Positions 5,374-64,000 of a stretch of DNA of 64,000 nucleotides are shown here, in pieces. How positions within the stretch are numbered: the stretch's first letter is position 1; each line of letters starts with the position of its first letter. A program made the translations under genes and the position numbers. The notes beneath the pieces are model-generated. The model was not told the DNA's origin, ran no database searches, and saw only the letters and a list, made by a program, of their open reading frames with translations. The stretch covers positions 46,744 through 110,743 of the forward strand of contig PAPI01000032.1 of NCBI GenBank assembly GCA_002708845.1. The letters are read 5' to 3'. This DNA comes from Leeuwenhoekiella sp. (GTDB lineage Bacteria; Bacteroidota; Bacteroidia; Flavobacteriales; Flavobacteriaceae).

Positions 5374-5967
5374 TGAAATTCGGCGCTTTACAACCAGGCT
5401 TTACTGCTTAGTCTTTAACATTTCGGAAAGGCGAAAATAAGTAAAAACAGGCTCTAAACAAGGGTAAAATAACATTAAATTTCCTGATGAAGTCAAATAA
5501 ACGCAAACGACAAAACCGCGAAAACGTTTGAATATCAGCGCCTAAACCTCAAATAATAGTTTAGCGCATTGAACCCTAGTCAACTACATTGCTATAACCT
5601 ATAGCTTTATAAGTTTAACAAATAACGACTTTCCAAATTCTTAAATTTTAAGATAAAAAAAAACGGAACCATATGCCTCTGTTTAGCGCGCGAGGGTAGT
5701 AGTGGCACCTGAATTTCAAAAGCGCTGTTAACGATAAAGAATTACGCCTAAATTAAACCCTCGATTCTCGCTGTGTTAGGGTGCGATTAAAGCGCACGCA
5801 TAAAAAGCACAGAACCCCCGAAGAAAATCTGGGGACTTATTGCGGTTTTGCCCGATAAGGCAAAAAACCTCCTAAATGTGCCTGAGTCAATAGTGGCTAC
5901 AGAACCGCAATAGCGATAGGCACATGCAAGTTGACCAATTAAAAACCATAAAAACGACAGAATCAAA
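5374..5967. other. Leader/spacer upstream of the upxY-like gene
   Basis: Non-coding stretch that should contain the promoter and 5' leader of the polysaccharide operon (read on the minus strand). I could not fix a promoter. From about 5840 it carries a hairpin, TTTTGCC...AGGCAAAA, which resembles TTTTCGCC...GGCGAAAA at 9508-9527. This links it to the repeat island that follows. Confidence 0.5.
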
Positions 5968-6174
5968 AGCGTCTTTTCTTTTCGGCATCTGACGACCCCA
6001 GGGAAAGGAATGTACTGTTCCGAGAGAACTTTTAAGCATTCAAACGACGAAAGAGTCTCCTGGTAAACCGACGCCAGGAGATTCACGAGCTCCAAAACAA
6101 ATAAACAACAGCGAGATAAACCGACGCCAGGAGATTCACGAGCTCCAAAACCAATAAGCAATAGCGAGCTAAAG
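5968..6174. repeat. Composite repeat, block P copy 1 (two tail units)
   Basis: Starts with TCTTTTCTTTTCGGCATC, continues through a CGACGACCCCAGGGA segment, and ends with two consecutive copies (about 6066-6118 and 6120-6174) of a tail that begins AAACCGACG, contains the hairpin GGAG...CTCC (TTCACGAGCTCC) and ends AGCGAGCTAAA. The same block occurs at 6565-6720, 9169-9328 and 9536-9697. Apparent open frames through it are unlikely to be genes. Confidence 0.85.
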
Positions 6175-6175
6175 A

Positions 6176-6304
6176 AAAGGAAAGAAGATGCTATAGAACC
6201 CTTAATTTCTATTCTCCTTCCCTTTCTTTTGTAAAGTAAGCCGTTTCTTAGACAAGAACTAAAAATACTATTCTTATGTACTCCCTCGGTTCAGAATAGC
6301 CGCT
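6176..6304. repeat. Composite repeat, block Q copy 1
   Basis: Begins AAAGGAAAGAAGATG and ends CTCGGTTCAGAATAGCCGCT. It aligns along its whole length with 9338-9454, with a few substitutions and small gaps. In both places it follows block P, so the P-Q order is conserved between the two sides of the dipeptidase gene. Confidence 0.85.
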
Positions 6305-6362
6305 AGGACAGAGCGTTAAGAAAAGGTCTGGTAGACCTTTTTAGCGAATGAGCCAGGTGGCG
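6304..6362 (+). repeat. Hairpin repeat, copy 1 (plus orientation)
   Basis: GACAGAGCGTTAAG, then a perfect 9-bp stem AAAAGGTCT / AGACCTTTT (6321-6329 and 6333-6341) around loop GGT, then TAGCGAATGAGCC. The flanks and loop recur in opposite orientation at 6886-6950, but with different stem sequence that still pairs. Confidence 0.8.
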
Positions 6363-6424
6363 CATAGGCTTCAAGATCGCATCATTTTCTGGCATTCTCT
6401 TATTTACTTTTAAAATAGCAAATG

Positions 6425-6720
6425 CAGCGACGCGGAGCTGACAAGGCGGTTTTCACCCGTAAAATGGCTGTTGAGTCAAGCACTCTCCTCGCTAAAGGAC
6501 TAAATTAGTATCCAGGACCAGTTTAAGAAGTTTTGATCTCGACCATCGAGCGAAAAATTCCGAAGCGAGGGGCTCTTTTCTTTTCTGCATCCGACGACCG
6601 CAGGGAGAGGAATACACTGATCCGAGAGAACCTTTAAGCATTCAAACGACGTAGGTTTCTCCTGAGCAAACCGACGCCAGGAAATTCACGAGCTCCAAAA
6701 CCAATAAGCAACAGCGAGAT
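6425..6720. repeat. Composite repeat, blocks S and P copy 2
   Basis: Block S (6425-6564; AGCGACGCGGAGCTGAC through GCGAAAAATTCCGAA) joined to block P (6565-6720). Block S matches 9030-9168 over about 140 bases with few differences, and the S-P junction is identical on both sides of the dipeptidase gene. Confidence 0.85.
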
Positions 6721-6761
6721 ATATAAGAATAATTAAAACTATAACTCCCAACCTTAGTCCC

Positions 6762-6787
6762 TTTCTTTTGTCTTGATACAAAAGAAA
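6762..6787. repeat. Perfect 10-bp inverted repeat
   Basis: TTTCTTTTGT and ACAAAAGAAA flank a 6-base loop. It lies in the spacer between the two large repeat groups and is probably another dispersed palindromic element. Confidence 0.65.
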
Positions 6788-6885
6788 CAACACGTCTGGT
6801 CAGCCGGGCAGGAAAATCAAGGCTCACAAGACGGTATCTAAATTTATTGTTCGCTGCACTGCATTGTTTCTAGCTAAAATAGCCC

Positions 6886-6950
6886 AACGCGGCAAGCTGG
6901 CTCATTCGCTAGAATAGTCCACCGGACTATTCTTTAACGCTCTGCCCTAC
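6886..6950 (-). repeat. Hairpin repeat, copy 2 (minus orientation)
   Basis: Reverse-complement copy of 6304-6362. Its stem AGAATAGTCC / GGACTATTCT (6911-6920 and 6924-6933) differs from copy 1 in several base pairs but pairs perfectly, and the loop read on the minus strand is again GGT. Flanks GGCTCATTCGCT and TTAACGCTCTG match copy 1. Confidence 0.8.
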
Positions 6951-7109
6951 GATACCTTCTTGTAGGCCGTCTTCTGCATTAGAACTAAGAACTTTATCCT
7001 TTAGCCTTCTTATTCTTCAGTATAGCAAATTACTTCCCCTGAAATCATTTAACCTAAAAGATCAAACGAATTGGTGTTATTTGGAGAATGTAAAAACCGG
7101 CATATAGAA

Positions 7110-7216
7110 AAGATCTCGTAAAATTTGAGGTGAAGGCTTCGTAAAATTTTCTGCTGTCTGACCCGCAGGGGAGTTCAGAAAATTTAGAAGCCGAACGATA
7201 AATTTAGAGATCGTTT
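7110..7216. repeat. Long imperfect inverted repeat
   Basis: Two arms of about 40 bases (about 7111-7153 and 7176-7214), including GATCTC...GAGATC, GGCTTC...GAAGCC and AAAATTTTCTG...CAGAAAATTT, can fold into one long hairpin about 105 bases across. It lies upstream of the next repeat tail and after the dipeptidase gene (read on the minus strand). Confidence 0.75.
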
Positions 7217-7256
7217 CTTAAGCCTAGACTTTTTTGGTTCTTTTTTGGGCGATGCA

Positions 7257-7316
7257 AACCGACGATAGGAGGTTCACAAGCTCCAAAACCAATAAGTGAC
7301 AGCGAGCTAAAAAAGA
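7257..7316. repeat. Composite repeat, isolated tail unit
   Basis: A single tail unit (AAACCGACGATAGGAGG, then TTCACAAGCTCC, ending GACAGCGAGCTAAA) without the rest of block P. Confidence 0.8.
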
Positions 7317-7393
7317 ACAGGACAAACTTTAGAACCTATAACCTCCGTCTCACCCCTTCTTCTCCTGTAAAGCAACGCCTTTAAAAAATGGAA

Positions 7394-8839
7394 TTAAAAA
7401 TAAGCTTTTAAAAACGCCAGTGCATTGAGTCCCATAATACGATCTACAATAGCCCCGGCATCTAATTTGTTGAAGTCATGTTTAATTCGATCTTTTAGGA
7501 GATAGTTGTAAGCATGACGTTCCAAAAAATCACTCAGATAAGGGAGTTCTTCCGCAGTCCAGAACGCGTTTAACGGATCTATAATCCCATCGTAGTCTGA
7601 ACCTATCGCCATACAATCCCAGGCAAATAGTCCTTCAGCGTCTAAGACTTCCAGAATATGTTGAATCTGGTTCCAAAGCAGTTCAGAGCGATAATGCATA
7701 ATTTTATGACGGCGCGTGGCGTGACGGGTGGTTTTCAGGGTTTGTTCACTCGCAACCCTGCGCTCATCAAGTTGTAAACCAAGTATACCTCCGCTGCGTG
7801 CGATCATAACGAGCTCTTCATCATAAAAATTAATAGAAGTAGCCTGTAGTTTTTGGGCAGTCTCCGGATGCTGCATAACAGGCTCCTTTGGAGATTTAAG
7901 TCCGTTTGCAGCTCCATGACTTACGATAATCGGCAACTCGCCGTGGTTGTATTCAGAATCGAGGTAGGTATAATATTCATAACGCGCCTTTACACTCATA
8001 TGCTTGACGTCAATTAAAATGGACCTGCCCGCTTGTGGATCAAGCAGCAACTTCATCACTTCCCGGCCTAAGGGGGTAAACCCCAAACCCAAACCAAAGC
8101 TTTGATCCGCCTGTTTTTTAATAAGTCCGCTAAAGCTTTCTTCGTGTCCGCAGAGGTGATTCCAGAAGTGATGCGCCATCGTTACAAAAAGGGGAGGGTG
8201 TTCCCAGTTTTTGAGGGTTTTCAGATTTTGAAGCACCTCCTGCCTGTCGGGATCGGAAGACAAACCGGTATTCAGCACGTGCATACCTTCAATCGTGAGA
8301 ATCACACAAATACTAATGATACCATCCTGTTCCTCTTCGGCTTTGATAATCTCAATCTCGTTATACGAATTAACGATGCGATACCTAAACTTACCCTCCT
8401 TCAGTTTGATAACTTTTCCGTCCAGTTGTTTATAAAACGCATATTCAGCCTCGAGATCCTTAAAATATTCGGTAAAGCCCTGTATATGATCTATACGCTT
8501 CTTACCCAGACCCGTTGCGAAGTTGGCTGCAAGATCAAGCAGCAGCTCGTTGTTGACTTTATTGCGTACAAACCACTTTTCCATGGGGTAAAGCGAAACA
8601 CAGACCACACCTACTCCACCGTACGACATAGCAGTAAAGTTAGCCTGTGAAAACTTCGTAAGGCCGGTTAAGTAATTGAGTACTTTATCAAATACCGAAG
8701 GCGGATCGTAATGCCAGATTGAATGTTTAGAACTCCGTCGGGCTGTATTTTTACCTGCCGGTTTAGTATTAAAACTTTTACCAAAAGGTTTCAGTGCCGG
8801 ATGACAATGCAAATCGACGTAAAAATGAGAAGTATTCAT
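7394..8839 (-). CDS. Peptidase M19-type membrane dipeptidase homologue
   Basis: A 481-residue zinc-dependent amidohydrolase-fold protein of the M19 (renal dipeptidase) type, which hydrolyses dipeptides. Metal-ligand motifs are visible in order: DLHCHP near residue 9, ILTIEGMHVL (bridging Glu), VTMAHHFWN, VSHGAANG, and IGSDYDGI near the C-terminus (the family's terminal Asp). No signal peptide is visible, so a cytoplasmic location is likely. It is longer than bacterial M19 enzymes of about 350-400 residues. It stands alone, with large related repeats on both sides, and has no operon partner. Substrate is unknown. Confidence 0.8.
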   Translation of the reverse strand: MNTSHFYVDLHCHPALKPFGKSFNTKPAGKNTARRSSKHSIWHYDPPSVFDKVLNYLTGLTKFSQANFTAMSYGGVGVVCVSLYPMEKWFVRNKVNNELLLDLAANFATGLGKKRIDHIQGFTEYFKDLEAEYAFYKQLDGKVIKLKEGKFRYRIVNSYNEIEIIKAEEEQDGIISICVILTIEGMHVLNTGLSSDPDRQEVLQNLKTLKNWEHPPLFVTMAHHFWNHLCGHEESFSGLIKKQADQSFGLGLGFTPLGREVMKLLLDPQAGRSILIDVKHMSVKARYEYYTYLDSEYNHGELPIIVSHGAANGLKSPKEPVMQHPETAQKLQATSINFYDEELVMIARSGGILGLQLDERRVASEQTLKTTRHATRRHKIMHYRSELLWNQIQHILEVLDAEGLFAWDCMAIGSDYDGIIDPLNAFWTAEELPYLSDFLERHAYNYLLKDRIKHDFNKLDAGAIVDRIMGLNALAFLKAYF

Positions 8840-8984
8840 AACTTGAGTTTAGATGTACTCAGGGGTCATAAATGATAAAGGGATGGTAAGATAAGTATTT
8901 ATACTGAAAGTCAGTTACTTAAAATAGCCTCGAAATAGCAAACCAGCCCAAAATACGCAACCAAAAGCTTAACAAAGCTCAATC

Positions 8985-9328
8985 CCTTGCTTCAGAATGG
9001 CCGAAGAAGCTCCGAGATTCAGGAGCGACAGCGACGCCGAGCTGACAAGGCGGTTTTCGCCTGTAAAATGGGTGTTGAGTCAAGCACTCTCCTCGCTAAA
9101 GGACTAAATTATAATTCAGGACCAGTTTAAGAAGTTTTGATCTTGATCATCGAGCGAAAAATTCCGAAGCGAGGGGCTCTTTTCTTTTCTGCATCCTACG
9201 ACCGTAGGGAGCCAAATGCACTGTCACGAAACATTCTTTAATGATTTAAACGACCTAAGAGTCTCTTAAGCAAACCGACGAAAGGAGGTTCACGAGCTCC
9301 AAAACCAATAAGCAACAGCGAGTTAAAG
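8985..9328. repeat. Composite repeat, blocks S and P copy 3
   Basis: TTCAGAATGGCCG followed by the hairpin GCTCC...GGAGC (9009-9026), then block S (9030-9168) and block P (9169-9328). Block P here contains CCAAATGCACTGTCACGAAAC, also present in the copy at 9536. Confidence 0.85.
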
Positions 9329-9337
9329 AAAAAGGAA

Positions 9338-9454
9338 AGAAGATCTTATAGAAACCTTAATTTCTATTCTCTTTCCCTTCTTTTGTAAAGTAAGCCGTTT
9401 CTGAAACCAGAACTAAAAATACCATTCTTTAGTACTCCCTCGGTTCAGAATAGC
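9338..9454. repeat. Composite repeat, block Q copy 2
   Basis: Matches 6176-6304 from AAAGGAAAGAAGAT through GTTCAGAATAGCCGCT and, like it, follows a copy of block P. Confidence 0.85.
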
Positions 9455-9697
9455 CGCTGGAAGCTCCGAGATTCAGGAGCGATAGCGACGCGGAGCTGAC
9501 GAGGCGGTTTTCGCCATAAGGCGAAAAATTCCTAAGCGAGGGGCTCTTTTCTTTTCTGCATCCGACGACCGCAGGGAGCCAAATGCACTGTCACGAAACA
9601 ATCTTTAATGATTTAAACGACCTAAGAGTCTCTTAAGCAAACCGACGAAAGGAGGTTCACGAGCTCCAAAACCAATAAGCAACAGCGAGCTAAAGAA
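9455..9697. repeat. Composite repeat, shortened block S and block P copy 4
   Basis: Carries the GCTCC...GGAGC hairpin and a block S reduced to about 60 bases with the hairpin TTTTCGCC / GGCGAAAA, then a block P that is almost identical to 9169-9328 over about 160 bases. The near-identity points to recent duplication or gene-conversion-like exchange. Confidence 0.85.
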
Positions 9698-9731
9698 AAT
9701 GAACAGAACATGCTGAAGCAACTTAAAATAT

Positions 9732-9818
9732 ATAAATCGAGGTACGAGGTTGACGAACTCAAAAAAGCAATAAGCGACAGCGAGCTAAACCGACGACAGG
9801 AGGTTCACGAGCTCCAAA
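9732..9818. repeat. Composite repeat, two degenerate tail units
   Basis: Two diverged tail units in a row, the second being ACCGACGACAGGAGG followed by TTCACGAGCTCC. They end just before the terminator of the rhodanese gene and mark the right border of the repeat island. Confidence 0.75.
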
Positions 9819-9826
9819 ATAGTAAA

Positions 9827-9852
9827 CAAAAAAAAGAGCCCTTAAGGCTCTT
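9827..9852 (-). terminator. Intrinsic terminator of the rhodanese gene
   Basis: Stem AAGAGCC / GGCTCTT (9834-9840, 9846-9852), with a run of A on the plus strand at 9827-9835, which reads as T8-9 on the minus strand. It is placed directly after the rhodanese stop. Confidence 0.85.
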
Positions 9853-9875
9853 CTATACTATTTAAAACAAAAATC

Positions 9876-15599: not shown

Positions 15600-15730
15600 T
15601 CGTTTTTCTATTTCCGCCCTTCGACTGTCGCTCAGGCTAGACTTCGGCGGAAATCTTATAAAACACAATTACAAACATCAAAAATAATTCTCTCCCCTGG
15701 AGAGAGATGCCCAACGGGCAGAGAGGGCTT
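15600..15730. repeat. Two dispersed palindromic repeats between trpG and trpD
   Basis: About 15610-15655 has outer arms ATTTCCGCC / GGCGGAAAT around CTTCGACTGTCGCTCAGGC; related elements precede trpB and trpA. About 15691-15727 is a CTCTCC...GGAGAG element of the SPLER type. An in-frame start inside it would add 8 repeat-coded residues to TrpD. Confidence 0.75.
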
Positions 15731-17548: not shown

Positions 17549-17620
17549 AAGGCTCCCCTCCTTTAAAAGGAGGGGAACGTTTCAGCTTGCTGAAACAGGG
17601 GTGGTTATACTGCCCAGAGA
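17549..17620. repeat. Palindromic repeats between trpC and trpF
   Basis: Two adjacent hairpins: CCCCTCCTTT / AAAGGAGGGG (about 17555-17575) and GTTTCAGC / GCTGAAAC (about 17579-17597), followed by AGGGGTGGTT. They are dispersed-repeat type elements in the operon spacer and may act as processing or stability sites. Confidence 0.7.
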
Positions 17621-18394
17621 TTGAAAGAATCTATAATGAAAAACAAGGACATATCTAAAAAACAAACTCCCTCTCCTTTGGAGAGGGCTGGGGTGAGGAC
17701 TAAAGTCTGCGGCATGAAGCACAACACCGCTGATGTGGCAGCACTTGATCCGGACTACCTGGGCTTTATTTTTTTTGAGAAGAGTCCGCGTAATTACGAT
17801 TTAAATGAGATTCCGGAGCTGCATTCTGGAATCAAAAAAGTGGGTGTTTTTGTGAATGCCGAGTTGGATTTTGTGTTAGAAAAAGTCCGTCAATTTGGGT
17901 TTGAGGTTATTCAGCTACACGGTAACGAATCCCCCGAGTATTGTACGGAACTGAAAACCCGTCATGCTGAACTTGTTTCAGCATCGCATCCTAATTTAGG
18001 AATGCCTGTACCGAGCCCAATCGAGGTACCTGCACTGAGTTCAATCGAAGTGTGGAAAGTCTTTAGCATTAAAGACAGCTTTGATTTTTCAGTCCTAAAA
18101 GAATATGAACCCGTGGTTGACAAATTTTTGTTTGACACCAAAGGCAAAGAAAAGGGCGGCAACGGCTATACCTTTGACTGGAATGTCTTAAAAGACTACC
18201 CCTCATCAAAACCCTTTATCTTGAGCGGCGGTATTGGCCTGGAGGAAATCGACTCTGTAAGAGAACTGATGCAAACCGATTTACCGCTCTATGCGATTGA
18301 TGTAAATAGTAAATTTGAAGACCAACCCGGACTAAAGAATATTGAAAACTTAAAAAAATTGATTGATTCTTTTACCCCTACTAAAAGAACTTAA
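17621..18394 (+). CDS. trpF: Phosphoribosylanthranilate isomerase with repeat-derived insertions
   Basis: TIM-barrel isomerase of tryptophan synthesis. The core is clear: KVCGMKHNTADV (catalytic Cys30), GFIFFEKSPRNY, VGVFVNAELD, VIQLHGNESPEYC, and ILSGGIGLEEI with AIDVNSKFE near the end. At 257 residues it is about 45 longer than usual. Residues 16-26 (TPSPLERAGVR) and about 113-143 (from TRHAELVSASHP to PALSSIE) are encoded by dispersed palindromic repeats that stay in frame. The second lies in the loop between helix 4 and strand 5, the side of the barrel away from the active site. A start at 17636 is also possible. Because the frame is intact and the pathway complete, I expect it to be functional. 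Confidence 0.9.
   Translation: MKESIMKNKDISKKQTPSPLERAGVRTKVCGMKHNTADVAALDPDYLGFIFFEKSPRNYDLNEIPELHSGIKKVGVFVNAELDFVLEKVRQFGFEVIQLHGNESPEYCTELKTRHAELVSASHPNLGMPVPSPIEVPALSSIEVWKVFSIKDSFDFSVLKEYEPVVDKFLFDTKGKEKGGNGYTFDWNVLKDYPSSKPFILSGGIGLEEIDSVRELMQTDLPLYAIDVNSKFEDQPGLKNIENLKKLIDSFTPTKRT
17666..17699 (+). repeat. SPLER-type repeat inside the 5' end of trpF
   Basis: Core CCCTCTCC, TTTGGAGAGGG, then CTGGGGTGAGG; it encodes residues 16-26 of TrpF. Same family as 2186-2224 and 15691-15727. Confidence 0.75.
17957..18050 (+). repeat. Repeat cluster inside trpF coding sequence
   Basis: First a palindrome GATGCTGAAAC-like element (GTCATGCTGAAC / GTTTCAGCATC), then two short hairpins with the same core but different stems: GTACC / GGTAC and CACT / AGTG around GAG(C/T)(C/T)CAATCGA. 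The segment is in frame and translated within TrpF. Confidence 0.75.
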
Positions 18395-61303: not shown

Positions 61304-64000
61304 TTAGTTAATGTATAAGAATGAAGCCAACTGTCGTATCTCTCCATTGTCACGCTCATATTCAATGACATAATAGTACGTACCTGTAGGTAATCGCTCA
61401 CCTCTTCTTACTGTCGCACGACCGTCTGAGAATCCTCTAAAGGCATTATCACCATTAGGATTATATCCTGTAGTACTAAATACTTCTACACCCCACCGGT
61501 TAAATATTTTAACCGAATTATTCGGGAAGTTCTCAATGTTCTTAATCATAAAGATATCATTCAATCCATCACCGTTAGGAGTCATCACATTGTAAACGAT
61601 TATGTCTTCAACGTTTTCAACACCCTGTAACGGTGTGAACGTGGCGTCATCAGGTTCTCCATCACCTTCTAGATCTTCATCTGTAGTATTATTTGGATCA
61701 TCTGAAAGGTCTTCTATCACGTCACCATTAGACAACACCCCACTAGCTATAGCTTGGTTAGTTACACCTGCTGATTCAATATCTGCCTGAGTGATCGTAT
61801 AAATTGCACTAAAGGTTGAAGAATCAACTACTCCCGGAGCAAGATCAACAGGACCACCTGTAACAGGCACCAAAGGATCGTCTATTACAATATCAAATAT
61901 TGAAGTTTCACCGGTATTATAAACCGTGAACGTGTAAGTAATAGTCTCCCCTACGTCTGGAATACCGTCACCATCCTCATCGTTGAAAACACCTATTTTC
62001 TCAACACTCATTCCTGTAACACCAGGAGTTGTTGTTATTGTAGGATCATTACCTGGATCGCCGTCACCGTCATCATCGGCAAGCTCATCTCCGTTATCGG
62101 AAACATCAGTAACTTCTTCTCCAAACTGATCGGTACCTGCGGCGATTGCACTGTTGACTACAAAACCGGCTTCAATGTCATCCTGAGTAATCGTATATAC
62201 GGCCGTTGCAGTACCACTTTCACCAGGAGTTAATGTTGCAGGATTTAGTTCTAAACCTGAAACTTCCAGCCTTTCATCACTTATCACAATATCACTTACA
62301 CTTGTATTACCCGTATTGGTAACAGTGAAGGTGTAGGTAATTGTTTCTCCAACCTGTGCGAAAGCATCTTGATTTTCATCATTGAGCTCTGCAGTTTTTA
62401 CAAATTGAAGTTTTGATACCGGTGATTCTTCGATTATGATGTAGACCGTTGCAACATCTGTAGCTACAGGCGAACCTGCATCAAATATTTGATACGTAAA
62501 CTGATCTGTTCCTGTAAAGCCATCATTTGGTGTATACGTAAATGTACCATCACTATTAATAACTACACTACCATTTGCAGGAGCTACTATTGGAGATACA
62601 GAAGTATCTACAGTCTGAGCTTGACCTTCTGGATCAGAATCATTATCAAGTACATTACCAGTCACCGGAGTATTTACCTCTCCATAATAAGCATCATCAT
62701 TAGCAACAGTTGTGTTACCAGTATCAGCAATTACCTCAATGGTTACTGTTCCTGTTGCACATGCCTGCGGATCTCCATCATCACAAACTGTATATTCAAA
62801 ACTATCCTGACCTGAATAACCTGTGTCTGGTGTATAAGTATACGTACCATCAGGGTTAATCACTACAGTTCCGTGTTCTGGGTCTGTATTGTCAGTTACT
62901 GTAATTGGATCTCCATCTGGATCAAAGTCATTGCTCAGTACATTACCGTCTATAGGAACACCAACTTCTGTAATATTTGTATCATCATTCGCAACAGGAG
63001 GATCATTAGTCGTGGTTGGGAATGGAATCACCTGGATGATCACATCTGCCTGATCACAAGCCTGTGGGCTACCACCATCACACACTTCATAAGTGAAGGT
63101 GTCCTCACCGATAAAGCCATCGTTTGGCGTGTACGTATACGTTCCGTCTGCATTGAAGACCAAAGTACCGTTGGCTGGCTGGGTTACCACCGTGTAAACC
63201 TCACTGCCCGCAGGGCCGTCTGGGTTCTCATCGTTGGTCCCTACATCACCACTCACCGGCTGACCTTCAAAGGTATCGTTGATGTCATTGATCGCTAAAA
63301 TGTCGTTTCCGCCATTCTCGCTAGGATCAATACTGATGTATACTGTGGCGGTATCTGTCGCTCCGTTAGCATCAGTGATCGTATAGGTAAACTGGTCTGT
63401 TCCGCTATAACCCATCGCTGGTGTATAAGTGAACTCACCATTTGCTGAGATTGAAACGCTACCGTGTGCAGGACTTGTATTACCTGTTACACTAAAGCTA
63501 TCACCTTCAGGATCGCTGTCGTTATCCGTTACATTACCGGTGATGTCATCGCCGATAAACCCGAAGTACGCATCGTCATTAGCTACTACCGTATTGCCGT
63601 TATCAGCAGTTACCTCAATAGTTACTTTTCCTGTTGCACAAGCTTGTGGGTCGGCATCATCACATACAGTGTACGTGAAGCTGTCCTCGCCTACAAAACC
63701 AGGCTCCGGAGTATAGGTGAACGTTCCCTCAGGGTTTACTACAACACTACCATTATCTGGCTGAGTATTGGCCGTTACCGTGATTGGATCGCCGTCTGGA
63801 TCAAAGTCATTTACCAGTACATTACCGTCTACAGGTACTCCTGTCTCGGTAATTGCGGTATCATCATTAGCAACTGGTGCTGCATTATCAGGTCCTCCTA
63901 CAGGGATCACCTGGATGATCACATCTGCCTGATCACAAGCCTGTGGGCTACCACCATCACATACTTCATAAGTGAAGGTGTCCTCACCGATAAAGCCGTC
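61304..64000 (-). CDS. Giant repeat adhesin with gliding-motility C-terminal domain (5' end outside window)
   Basis: The frame is open to the window edge, so at least 898 residues are present and the N-terminus is missing. It consists of tandem Ig/cadherin-like domains of about 95 residues (motifs 'PVANDDT', 'NVLVNDFDPDGDPITVT', 'GTFTYTPEPGF.GEDSFTYTVC', 'ACDQADVIIQVIP'), then two DUF11 domains (GETITYTFTVTNTGNTSVSD and VGETITYTFTVYNTGETSIF), and a C-terminal CHU_C-type domain (TPNGDGLNDIFMI, FNRWGVEVFSTTGY, GRATVRRGERLPTGTYYYV) that directs type IX secretion. Cell-surface adhesin like SprB. Start, length and N-terminal signal cannot be seen. Confidence 0.93.
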   Translation of the reverse strand, partial: DGFIGEDTFTYEVCDGGSPQACDQADVIIQVIPVGGPDNAAPVANDDTAITETGVPVDGNVLVNDFDPDGDPITVTANTQPDNGSVVVNPEGTFTYTPEPGFVGEDSFTYTVCDDADPQACATGKVTIEVTADNGNTVVANDDAYFGFIGDDITGNVTDNDSDPEGDSFSVTGNTSPAHGSVSISANGEFTYTPAMGYSGTDQFTYTITDANGATDTATVYISIDPSENGGNDILAINDINDTFEGQPVSGDVGTNDENPDGPAGSEVYTVVTQPANGTLVFNADGTYTYTPNDGFIGEDTFTYEVCDGGSPQACDQADVIIQVIPFPTTTNDPPVANDDTNITEVGVPIDGNVLSNDFDPDGDPITVTDNTDPEHGTVVINPDGTYTYTPDTGYSGQDSFEYTVCDDGDPQACATGTVTIEVIADTGNTTVANDDAYYGEVNTPVTGNVLDNDSDPEGQAQTVDTSVSPIVAPANGSVVINSDGTFTYTPNDGFTGTDQFTYQIFDAGSPVATDVATVYIIIEESPVSKLQFVKTAELNDENQDAFAQVGETITYTFTVTNTGNTSVSDIVISDERLEVSGLELNPATLTPGESGTATAVYTITQDDIEAGFVVNSAIAAGTDQFGEEVTDVSDNGDELADDDGDGDPGNDPTITTTPGVTGMSVEKIGVFNDEDGDGIPDVGETITYTFTVYNTGETSIFDIVIDDPLVPVTGGPVDLAPGVVDSSTFSAIYTITQADIESAGVTNQAIASGVLSNGDVIEDLSDDPNNTTDEDLEGDGEPDDATFTPLQGVENVEDIIVYNVMTPNGDGLNDIFMIKNIENFPNNSVKIFNRWGVEVFSTTGYNPNGDNAFRGFSDGRATVRRGERLPTGTYYYVIEYERDNGEIRQLASFLYIN

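Follow-up and report, generated by a model that had tools for sequence, protein, structure and literature searches.

Palindromic elements in the reading frame of trpF in Flavobacteriaceae and a probable recurrent landing site in the α4-β5 loop

Based on our findings, we propose that TrpF of a Leeuwenhoekiella sp. and of related genera carries protein-coding palindromes that entered the gene in frame, and that the loop between helix α4 and strand β5 is very probably a recurrent landing site for them. The proposal is drawn from the sequence identity of the elements, their copies elsewhere, their frame, position and recurrence, and the complementary variation of their stems. Short dispersed hairpins would have entered trpF in frame, those of two families (F2 and F1) at the α4-β5 loop and those of a third (F3) at the N-terminus. 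In related genera, different families would enter the α4-β5 loop, multiply in tandem, get lost and replace each other. The elements may be tolerated because they sit in a surface loop and in an N-terminal tail of the (βα)8 barrel, and we infer that the hot spot arises from this tolerance together with a local preference of insertion or repair, which for F1 would be microhomology with the β5 codons. The events would be insertions rather than growth in situ, and the peptides are presumably translated.

The window, the whole stretch of 64,000 nucleotides that was analysed, belongs to a genome (G000) of 4.35 Mb that is 98% complete and has species of Leeuwenhoekiella as its closest named relatives. 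Its trp genes lie in the order trpE, trpG, trpD, trpC, trpF, trpB, trpA, named from reading the translations and, for TrpF, by Pfam. The open reading frame at 17621-18394 is TrpF (Pfam PRAI, 5.1e-34) with an intact frame, and it is the single match when G000 is searched with this TrpF. An ATG at 17636 is a likelier start than the TTG at 17621, which would give 257 amino acids. In an alignment of 50 TrpF sequences C25 and D167, which we take to be the catalytic Cys and Asp, are invariant. Elsewhere in the window, direct repeats of 78-300 nt (GCAAACCGACGCCAGGAGATTCACGAGCTCC...) are scattered over 5951-9862 together with inverted repeats, and 62516-64000 is repetitive at intervals of about 290-300 nt, possibly within a large surface protein. 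The features of the trp region are as follows.

17636-18394, plus strand: trpF, 252 aa from the ATG
17669-17698, plus strand: F3 palindrome of the CTCTCC/GGAGAG type, CCCTCTCCTTTGGAGAGGG + CTGGGGTGAGG, in frame as PSPLERAGVR and abutting TKVCGM
17960-17988, plus strand: F2, a CGTC-tagged REP with stem ATGCTGAA/TTCAGCAT and loop CTTGT, peptide RHAELVSAS
18008-18030, plus strand: F1 hairpin, copy a, GTACC-GAGCCCAATCGA-GGTAC
18033-18052, plus strand: F1 hairpin, copy b, CACT-GAGTTCAATCGA-AGTG
17553-17605, plus strand: palindromic stretch in the trpC-trpF gap, CTCCCCTCCTTTAAAAGGAGGGG ... TTTCAGCTTGCTGAAA ... GGGGTGG
15611-15633, minus strand: F1-like core in the trpG-trpD gap, GAGCGACAGTCGAAGGGCGGAAA
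18441-18463, plus strand: F1-like core in the trpF-trpB gap, GAGCGATAGCCGAAGGGCGGAAA
19841-19863, plus strand: F1-like core in the trpB-trpA gap, GAGCGATAGTCGAAGGACGGAAA

An earlier note on this DNA had derived TPSPLERAGVR (residues 16-26 of the 257-aa reading) from a palindrome, which is what we find at 17669-17698. It had also derived RHAELVSAS, encoded by CGTCATGCTGAACTTGTTTCAGCAT at 17960-17984, from a second palindrome followed by two small hairpins with stems GTACC/GGTAC and CACT/AGTG; these are present as described, and the 3' arm of F1 copy b overlaps the first β5 codons (IEV). The cores of the two hairpins, said to be identical, agree in 10 of 12 bases (GAGCCCAATCGA vs GAGTTCAATCGA). 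The non-coding copies of the first palindrome claimed at 2186-2224 and 15691-15727 did not hold up: their scores as F3 copies, 23 and 22, are at chance level, and they are unsupported because both fall below the mean best score of 20 shuffled windows (24.4) and below the score of the reversed query (26). The stretch in the trpC-trpF gap is F3-like by architecture only, with an alignment score at chance level. The F1-like hairpins of the three other gaps carry a GGCGGAAA or GACGGAAA extension. The earlier observation is thus partly borne out, and its interpretation as palindromes within TrpF is supported.

The position of the internal insert agrees with the placement first suggested, between helix 4 and strand 5. 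In the AlphaFold2 model (mean pLDDT 87.7), α4 spans residues 100-116 and β5 138-145; pLDDT is about 61 at 121-130, about 62 at 1-20, 51 at 171-180 and 52 in the last block, and above 90 in most other blocks. The eleven best fold matches of the model are PRAI structures. Because pLDDT is low at the inserts and the fold matches are PRAI, the barrel of the predicted structure looks intact, and the inserts look like flexible additions to it, one a loop and the other a tail. In a TIM barrel, the α-β loops lie on the side opposite the catalytic face. Relatives lacking the internal segment, which the note had proposed to look for, were found: when T. maritima PRAI is compared with the window TrpF by phmmer, query residues 109-136 are unmatched, between PRAI residues 94 and 96, and many TrpF proteins of the family align in two pieces, stopping near 113 and resuming near 140 of the query.

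The elements have copies elsewhere in the genome, as had been anticipated, although their number in G000 is low. Against reversed-pattern controls of 0, G000 has 7 copies of the exact F1 core, 3 of the exact F2 core including that of trpF, 5 of a longer F2 form with up to 3 mismatches, and 2 of strict F3, one in trpF and one in hemD; strict F4 occurs once, and the one-mismatch F1 pattern GAGCNNAGTCGAAG shows no excess (10 vs 11 in the control). Genome-wide counts for F1 and F2 (23 genomes, with L050 and L064 left out) give F1 in 23/23 genomes at 2-72 copies each vs 0-2 reversed, and F2 in 15/23 at up to 26 copies vs 0. F4 was found in 8/10 genomes vs 0 reversed; as its pattern is a palindrome, matches were divided by two, which gives 2-25 places in each of the six genomes with an F4 or F4b loop and 0-1 in three other Aquimarina. 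The F4, F4b and F5 patterns were derived from TrpF loops, so for these only copies outside trpF count toward dispersal, and the genome-wide dispersal counts cover F1-F4. Strict F3 was found 7 times, in 6 of the 16 genomes searched, vs 0 reversed: three in trpF (G000, G006 and a Dokdonia MAG), two in frame in HemD (G000, G114), one directly ahead of an ATG, and one that lies within or next to a short frame. By this strict pattern, F3 is mostly confined to trpF and hemD and is barely dispersed.

The structure of the copies is also consistent. The F2 consensus CGTCAnnCTGAACTTGTTTCAGnnTCTCA has a CGTC tag and a stem whose first position is A-T and whose second is variable yet complementary, with a mostly CTCA unpaired tail. 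The tag ahead of the stem reads C76 G86 T86 C84 (%) in 46 Dokdonia copies and C87 G100 T100 C87 in eight copies of G000 found with a looser core; the outer A-T stem positions stand at 86 and 91%. Pairing at outward positions 2 and 3 is 85% and 99% in 75 distinct F2 copies vs 25% and 45% shuffled, and at outward position 3 of F1 it is 89% of 88 copies vs 39%, in statistics that include the trpF copies and from which the relatedness of copies was not removed. A G-T pair stands at outward position 2 in 9/75 F2 copies. In G113, 24 of 25 F2 copies pair perfectly, with six different complementary dinucleotides, and in G114 17 of 21 do so, the other four having one G-T pair; for G113, G114 and G100 a part of the total of copies was examined. 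The F1 consensus is (T)GAGCnnnGTCGA(A) with variable stems. Its tag in 30 Aequorivita copies reads T76 G66 T80 C70 (%), being exactly TGTC in 18, and both F1 copies of the window are without it. The F2 stem of the window with its loop spans 17964-17984, within the rule of an 8-9 bp stem and a 4-5 nt loop.

These features recall known systems. Rickettsia palindromic elements (RPE-1) are in-frame palindromes within conserved enzymes. The TrpF elements would work like these coding palindromes, with the difference that there is one long element there and several short families here. The likeness to Rickettsia, already drawn in the earlier note, is apt: the intragenic CGTC-tagged repeats of R. conorii correspond to RPE-4 and RPE-6 (PMC3733652). 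As described there, CGTC-tagged REPs resemble F1 and F2 in the terminal tag (CGTC, or TGTC and CCTC), the 8-9 bp stem that varies complementarily, the 4-5 nt loop, and dispersal, sometimes intragenic, without a dedicated transposase. Their unpaired tail fits CCA and their first two stem positions are complementary A-T, where the F2 of Flavobacteriaceae has mostly CTCA and a second position that varies but pairs. F2, and the F1 of other genomes, thus have the tag, stem and variation of CGTC-tagged REPs, with an inexact tail. Intragenic REPs are already known; what sets our case apart from those in PMC3733652 is the host, Flavobacteriaceae, and the repeated arrival of different families at one TrpF loop, for which that paper gives a single parallel: recB of two Xanthomonas species, in which different REPs lie at nearly the same position. 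The imperfect short dispersed hairpins of REP-RAYT systems (PMC6006769) are also like F1 and F2. Y1 transposase (PF01797, Y1_Tnp) has no match in G000, at 98% completeness, nor in 9 others of the 23 genomes; matches occur in 13 of the 23, above the family cut-off in 12. RAYT-driven spread was therefore rejected for G000.

The recurrence at the loop is seen in 110 TrpF loci, giving 100 unique proteins, a sample ranked by similarity and biased toward relatives of the window TrpF (matches in G075, G085, G093 and G094 were left out of the set). An F1-F5 match lies in the α4-β5 loop in 46 of these 100, some being weak single matches (e.g., L060, L017). Within Leeuwenhoekiella, 8 of 13 genomes have a loop element. 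Outside the genus, it is found in 4 of 57 taxonomically sampled TrpF (L017, L023, L027, L029), of which 17 + 38 were scanned by pattern and 2 (L244, L250) read by eye; the hot spot is therefore limited to some genera. The 38 scanned loci are from 40 further ones (L213-L252) and gave 0 element matches. For F1, the loops (7.6 kb) contain 46 matches, the TrpF body (54 kb) 5 and other coding sequence (254 kb) 32, against 6, 2 and 33 for the reversed control; the densities are 6.05, 0.09 and 0.13 per kb, the last equal to its reversed control. For F2 the counts are 18, 1 and 20 (reversed 0, 3 and 8), for F4 5, 0 and 3, and for F5 4, 0 and 1. In intergenic DNA of the trp loci, F1 is at background (6 vs 5 reversed), and in nearby coding DNA element density is near background. 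A scan of TrpF by hairpin strength gave 12 strong hairpins in loops (1.58/kb) vs 19 elsewhere (0.32/kb); since such a scan misses weak hairpins, the family patterns were used instead.

The peptides in this loop differ between lineages: RHAELVSAS-type in Algibacter, Wocania and Aestuariibaculum, TEPVEV in Aquimarina, RPHRSSRPVRS in Aquimarina atlantica, CQIERSRD or CQVERSRD in Leeuwenhoekiella and Aequorivita, EERNDAVI-type in Mariniflexile, and LSSGEGWGE (from F3) in a Dokdonia MAG. Five Dokdonia loci have, one each, F2, F3, F1 with F2, a palindrome outside F1-F5 (L058) and none (L083). On a tree of the TrpF core with the loop omitted, presence and absence require at least 24 changes, 9 of them forced by the starred, well-supported branches, and seven loop classes require 34, counts made imprecise by the long branches of one short protein and by weak support at 57 of 123 inner branches. 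The tree has 126 of 140 rows: 26 of the 40 loci L213-L252 entered, L246 having no ORF and 13 failing the anchor patterns. These 26 were labelled element-free ahead of the scan that later covered 38 of the 40.

Could random insertion, with only functionless loops keeping the elements and no special attraction to TrpF, account for this? We consider such plain tolerance quite possible, with somewhat less than an even chance. The α4-β5 loop varies in length even without elements, and in Aequorivita lipolytica F1 lies in four other ORFs (5/26 copies), so several genes accept elements. By an informal expectation, however, tens of copies per genome should rarely hit a 30-codon loop, yet 8 of 13 Leeuwenhoekiella are hit, as are several Aquimarina, Algibacter and Aestuariibaculum loci. 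Random insertion also sits poorly with a shared end point: the last F1 core, exact or with one mismatch, ends 7 nt upstream of the KVF lysine codon in 17 of 22 F1 loops, its 3' arm doubling as the β5 codons (V/I)E(V/I). Either microhomology may have guided the entry to this common end, or a long-standing F1 copy may have been renewed by conversion. The latter leads to another explanation, that most F1 cases go back to a single ancestral insertion at this loop, which gene conversion and tandem slippage have maintained. The common end point would fit it, as would the placement of most F1 rows in one broad part of the tree and the near-identical tandem units in L025, L022, L053 and L064; but other species, some of them sisters, have F2, F3, F4 or F5 at this loop, and close relatives are element-free (L011/L012 beside L009; L026 beside L015), and we regard it as rather improbable. 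Same-family neighbours within 250 bp outside trpF accompany 3/6 F4, 4/16 F2, 1/1 F3 and 1/4 F5 loops, counts from few lineages that are not independent; for F1 there is no excess (4/25, expected 4.0).

It is also conceivable that selection maintains the hairpins because they act in the trp mRNA, in pausing, decay or control of termination, the peptide being a by-product. The stems are conserved through compensating changes, including the G-T pairs of F2, and in the hairpin of L098 vs L099, read by eye, four base changes give four amino acid changes, two of the changed bases being an exchanged complementary pair. An F1-like hairpin also stands in each of three gaps of the operon in the window, trpG-trpD, trpF-trpB and trpB-trpA. 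However, copies far from trp show the same stem behaviour, among the TrpF loci examined about half lack a loop element, and the families are unlike in sequence, and this explanation seems very unlikely to us. Recurrent in-frame entry at a tolerant and locally preferred loop remains our reading.

At the N-terminus, F3 or a degenerate form of it abuts K(V/I)CGM in Leeuwenhoekiella, Aequorivita, Algibacter, Mariniflexile, Tamlana and Flavivirga (12 loci by pattern), and 5.5 kb of sequence at this end contain 12 hits, compared with 1 in the 254 kb of other coding sequence. A GTG precedes the Lys by three codons in 11 loci (L007, L008, L014, L022, L044, L047, L056, L058, L070, L083, L101) and by four in L087 and L105; the F3 of the window gives an in-frame GTG three codons ahead of the K of KVCGM. 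F3 could therefore supply the start codon, and N-terminal F3 might be an untranslated leader element that provides GTG where ATG usually stands. We find this unlikely, because five loci (L085, L090, L091, L097, L108) have no ATG, GTG or TTG within six codons and have an open in-frame ATG 24-25 codons upstream, so that translation through F3 is likely at least in these five, and because an in-frame upstream ATG is present in 21 of the 23 loci that we read as having an N-terminal extension (none in L009 and L014).

Copies in other coding frames, for which the note had proposed a search, occur in the genome of the window in HsdM and HemD and in other genomes in PurL, trehalase and further genes. 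HsdM of G000 (L149, G000:C15, around 101700) has F2 in frame as NNAQRHPELVSGSHAPY, with the peptide RHPELVSGSH; in the HemD frame of G000 (L255), F3 lies ahead of the HemD domain and also inside it, as PPLLEERAGVR. PurL (L135) and a trehalase (L138) carry F1 in frame, and so do four further ORFs of G100 (L196, L200, L205, L207), presumably MnmE, a peptidase, an α-2-macroglobulin-like protein and a helicase. The F1 copies of A. lipolytica counted above lie well inside their ORFs (5 of the 26 examined). In two Dokdonia genomes, 1 of 46 F2 copies lies inside an ORF, of 100 codons, and one at the extreme end of a 468-codon ORF.

The HemD ORF of G000 (L255/L283, G000:C4, about 185700-186500) begins with a DUF559 domain, and this domain may be the partner of F3. 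PF04480 (DUF559) is present in 20 of 20 genomes searched, with 52 matches, 20 of them in open frames of at least 377 aa. Of these 20, 13 were read: DUF559 is inside LeuS (5), MetH (2) and RecG (2) and in front of HemD (4), and Pfam confirms one of each with DUF559. In LeuS, residues 238 and 243 of T. thermophilus LeuRS flank query 317 to 453, and in RecG, residues 515 and 519 of T. maritima RecG flank query 432 to 586. The LeuS cassettes end in F3-type palindromes; by eye, the left one reads approximately as the right one reverse-complemented. The density of F3-like hairpins per kb-strand is 2.96 next to DUF559, about 20 times that in the rest of these loci (0.141) and about 150 times that in control loci (0.020); they were found at 11 of 18 DUF559 loci, at both ends in 5 and at neither end in 7, the 18 coming from 30 loci of which 12 were dropped by an orientation or length rule. 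The in-frame DUF559 loci L263, L264, L265, L266, L269, L272, L279, L284 and L291 are palindrome-bounded in most of those read.

LeuS appears to repeat the TrpF loop pattern, because its site holds a cassette, an F1 REP, other repeats or nothing. Among 13 Leeuwenhoekiella LeuS, the cassette is present in 7 in one alignment and in G012 in pieces, and 5 lack it: G002 has an F1 REP (TGTCACTTCGAGCGCAGTCGAGAAG) where G009, its sister in the TrpF tree, has the DUF559 cassette; repeats of the AATTCAGAATTC type stand there in G003, G007 and G010; and in G011 there is neither the REP nor such repeats. The tandem AATTCAGAATTC-type repeats in LeuS of L300, L301 and L303 read QNSEFKI or similar. In LeuS of G012 (L305), the cassette is flanked on both sides by a nuclease-free paired unit of left-end and right-end palindromes, as if nuclease-free copies exist.

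Since its in-frame cassettes are bounded by the same palindrome type, the DUF559 nuclease would be the likeliest partner of F3. PMC12907096 describes a DUF559 protein of Caulobacter as a Vsr-like member of the PD-(D/E)XK superfamily that is responsible for an SOS response. We tentatively suggest that F3 represents the ends of a mobile DUF559 cassette, solo F3 being nuclease-free derivatives and the tolerant loops exchangeable docking sites, a scheme that is possible rather than probable. In this scheme, a Vsr-like DUF559 cassette bounded by inverted palindromes would insert in frame, with the host protein staying readable, into loops of the essential enzymes LeuS, MetH and RecG and the front of HemD. 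The solo F3 in TrpF and HemD of G000 would be its nuclease-free derivatives, and DUF559 cassettes, CGTC-type REPs and other palindromes would swap at a few tolerant loops of housekeeping enzymes. Mobilisation of F3 by DUF559 is conceivable, the observation that bears on it being the presence or absence of the cassette in related species. Homing endonuclease and intein cassettes are comparable in layout, since they too place the ORF of a nuclease in frame within essential enzymes and are distributed patchily among sister species, but the cassette here has a DUF559 domain and palindromic ends.

In the open-access literature searched, no title or start of an abstract on palindromes in TrpF or on DUF559 with palindromes was found, and searches with six element core sequences gave nothing; relative to that literature, the recurrent swapping of families at one loop and the link to DUF559 appear to be new. 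Protein-coding palindromes are usually seen as isolated curiosities. The TrpF loop would record many entries by several families across genera, so that rate, target choice, selection for frame and loss become measurable. DUF559 offers a candidate enzyme for moving one palindrome family. A catalogue of sites in essential enzymes that accept about 10 to 150 extra residues would be useful for protein engineering and annotation.
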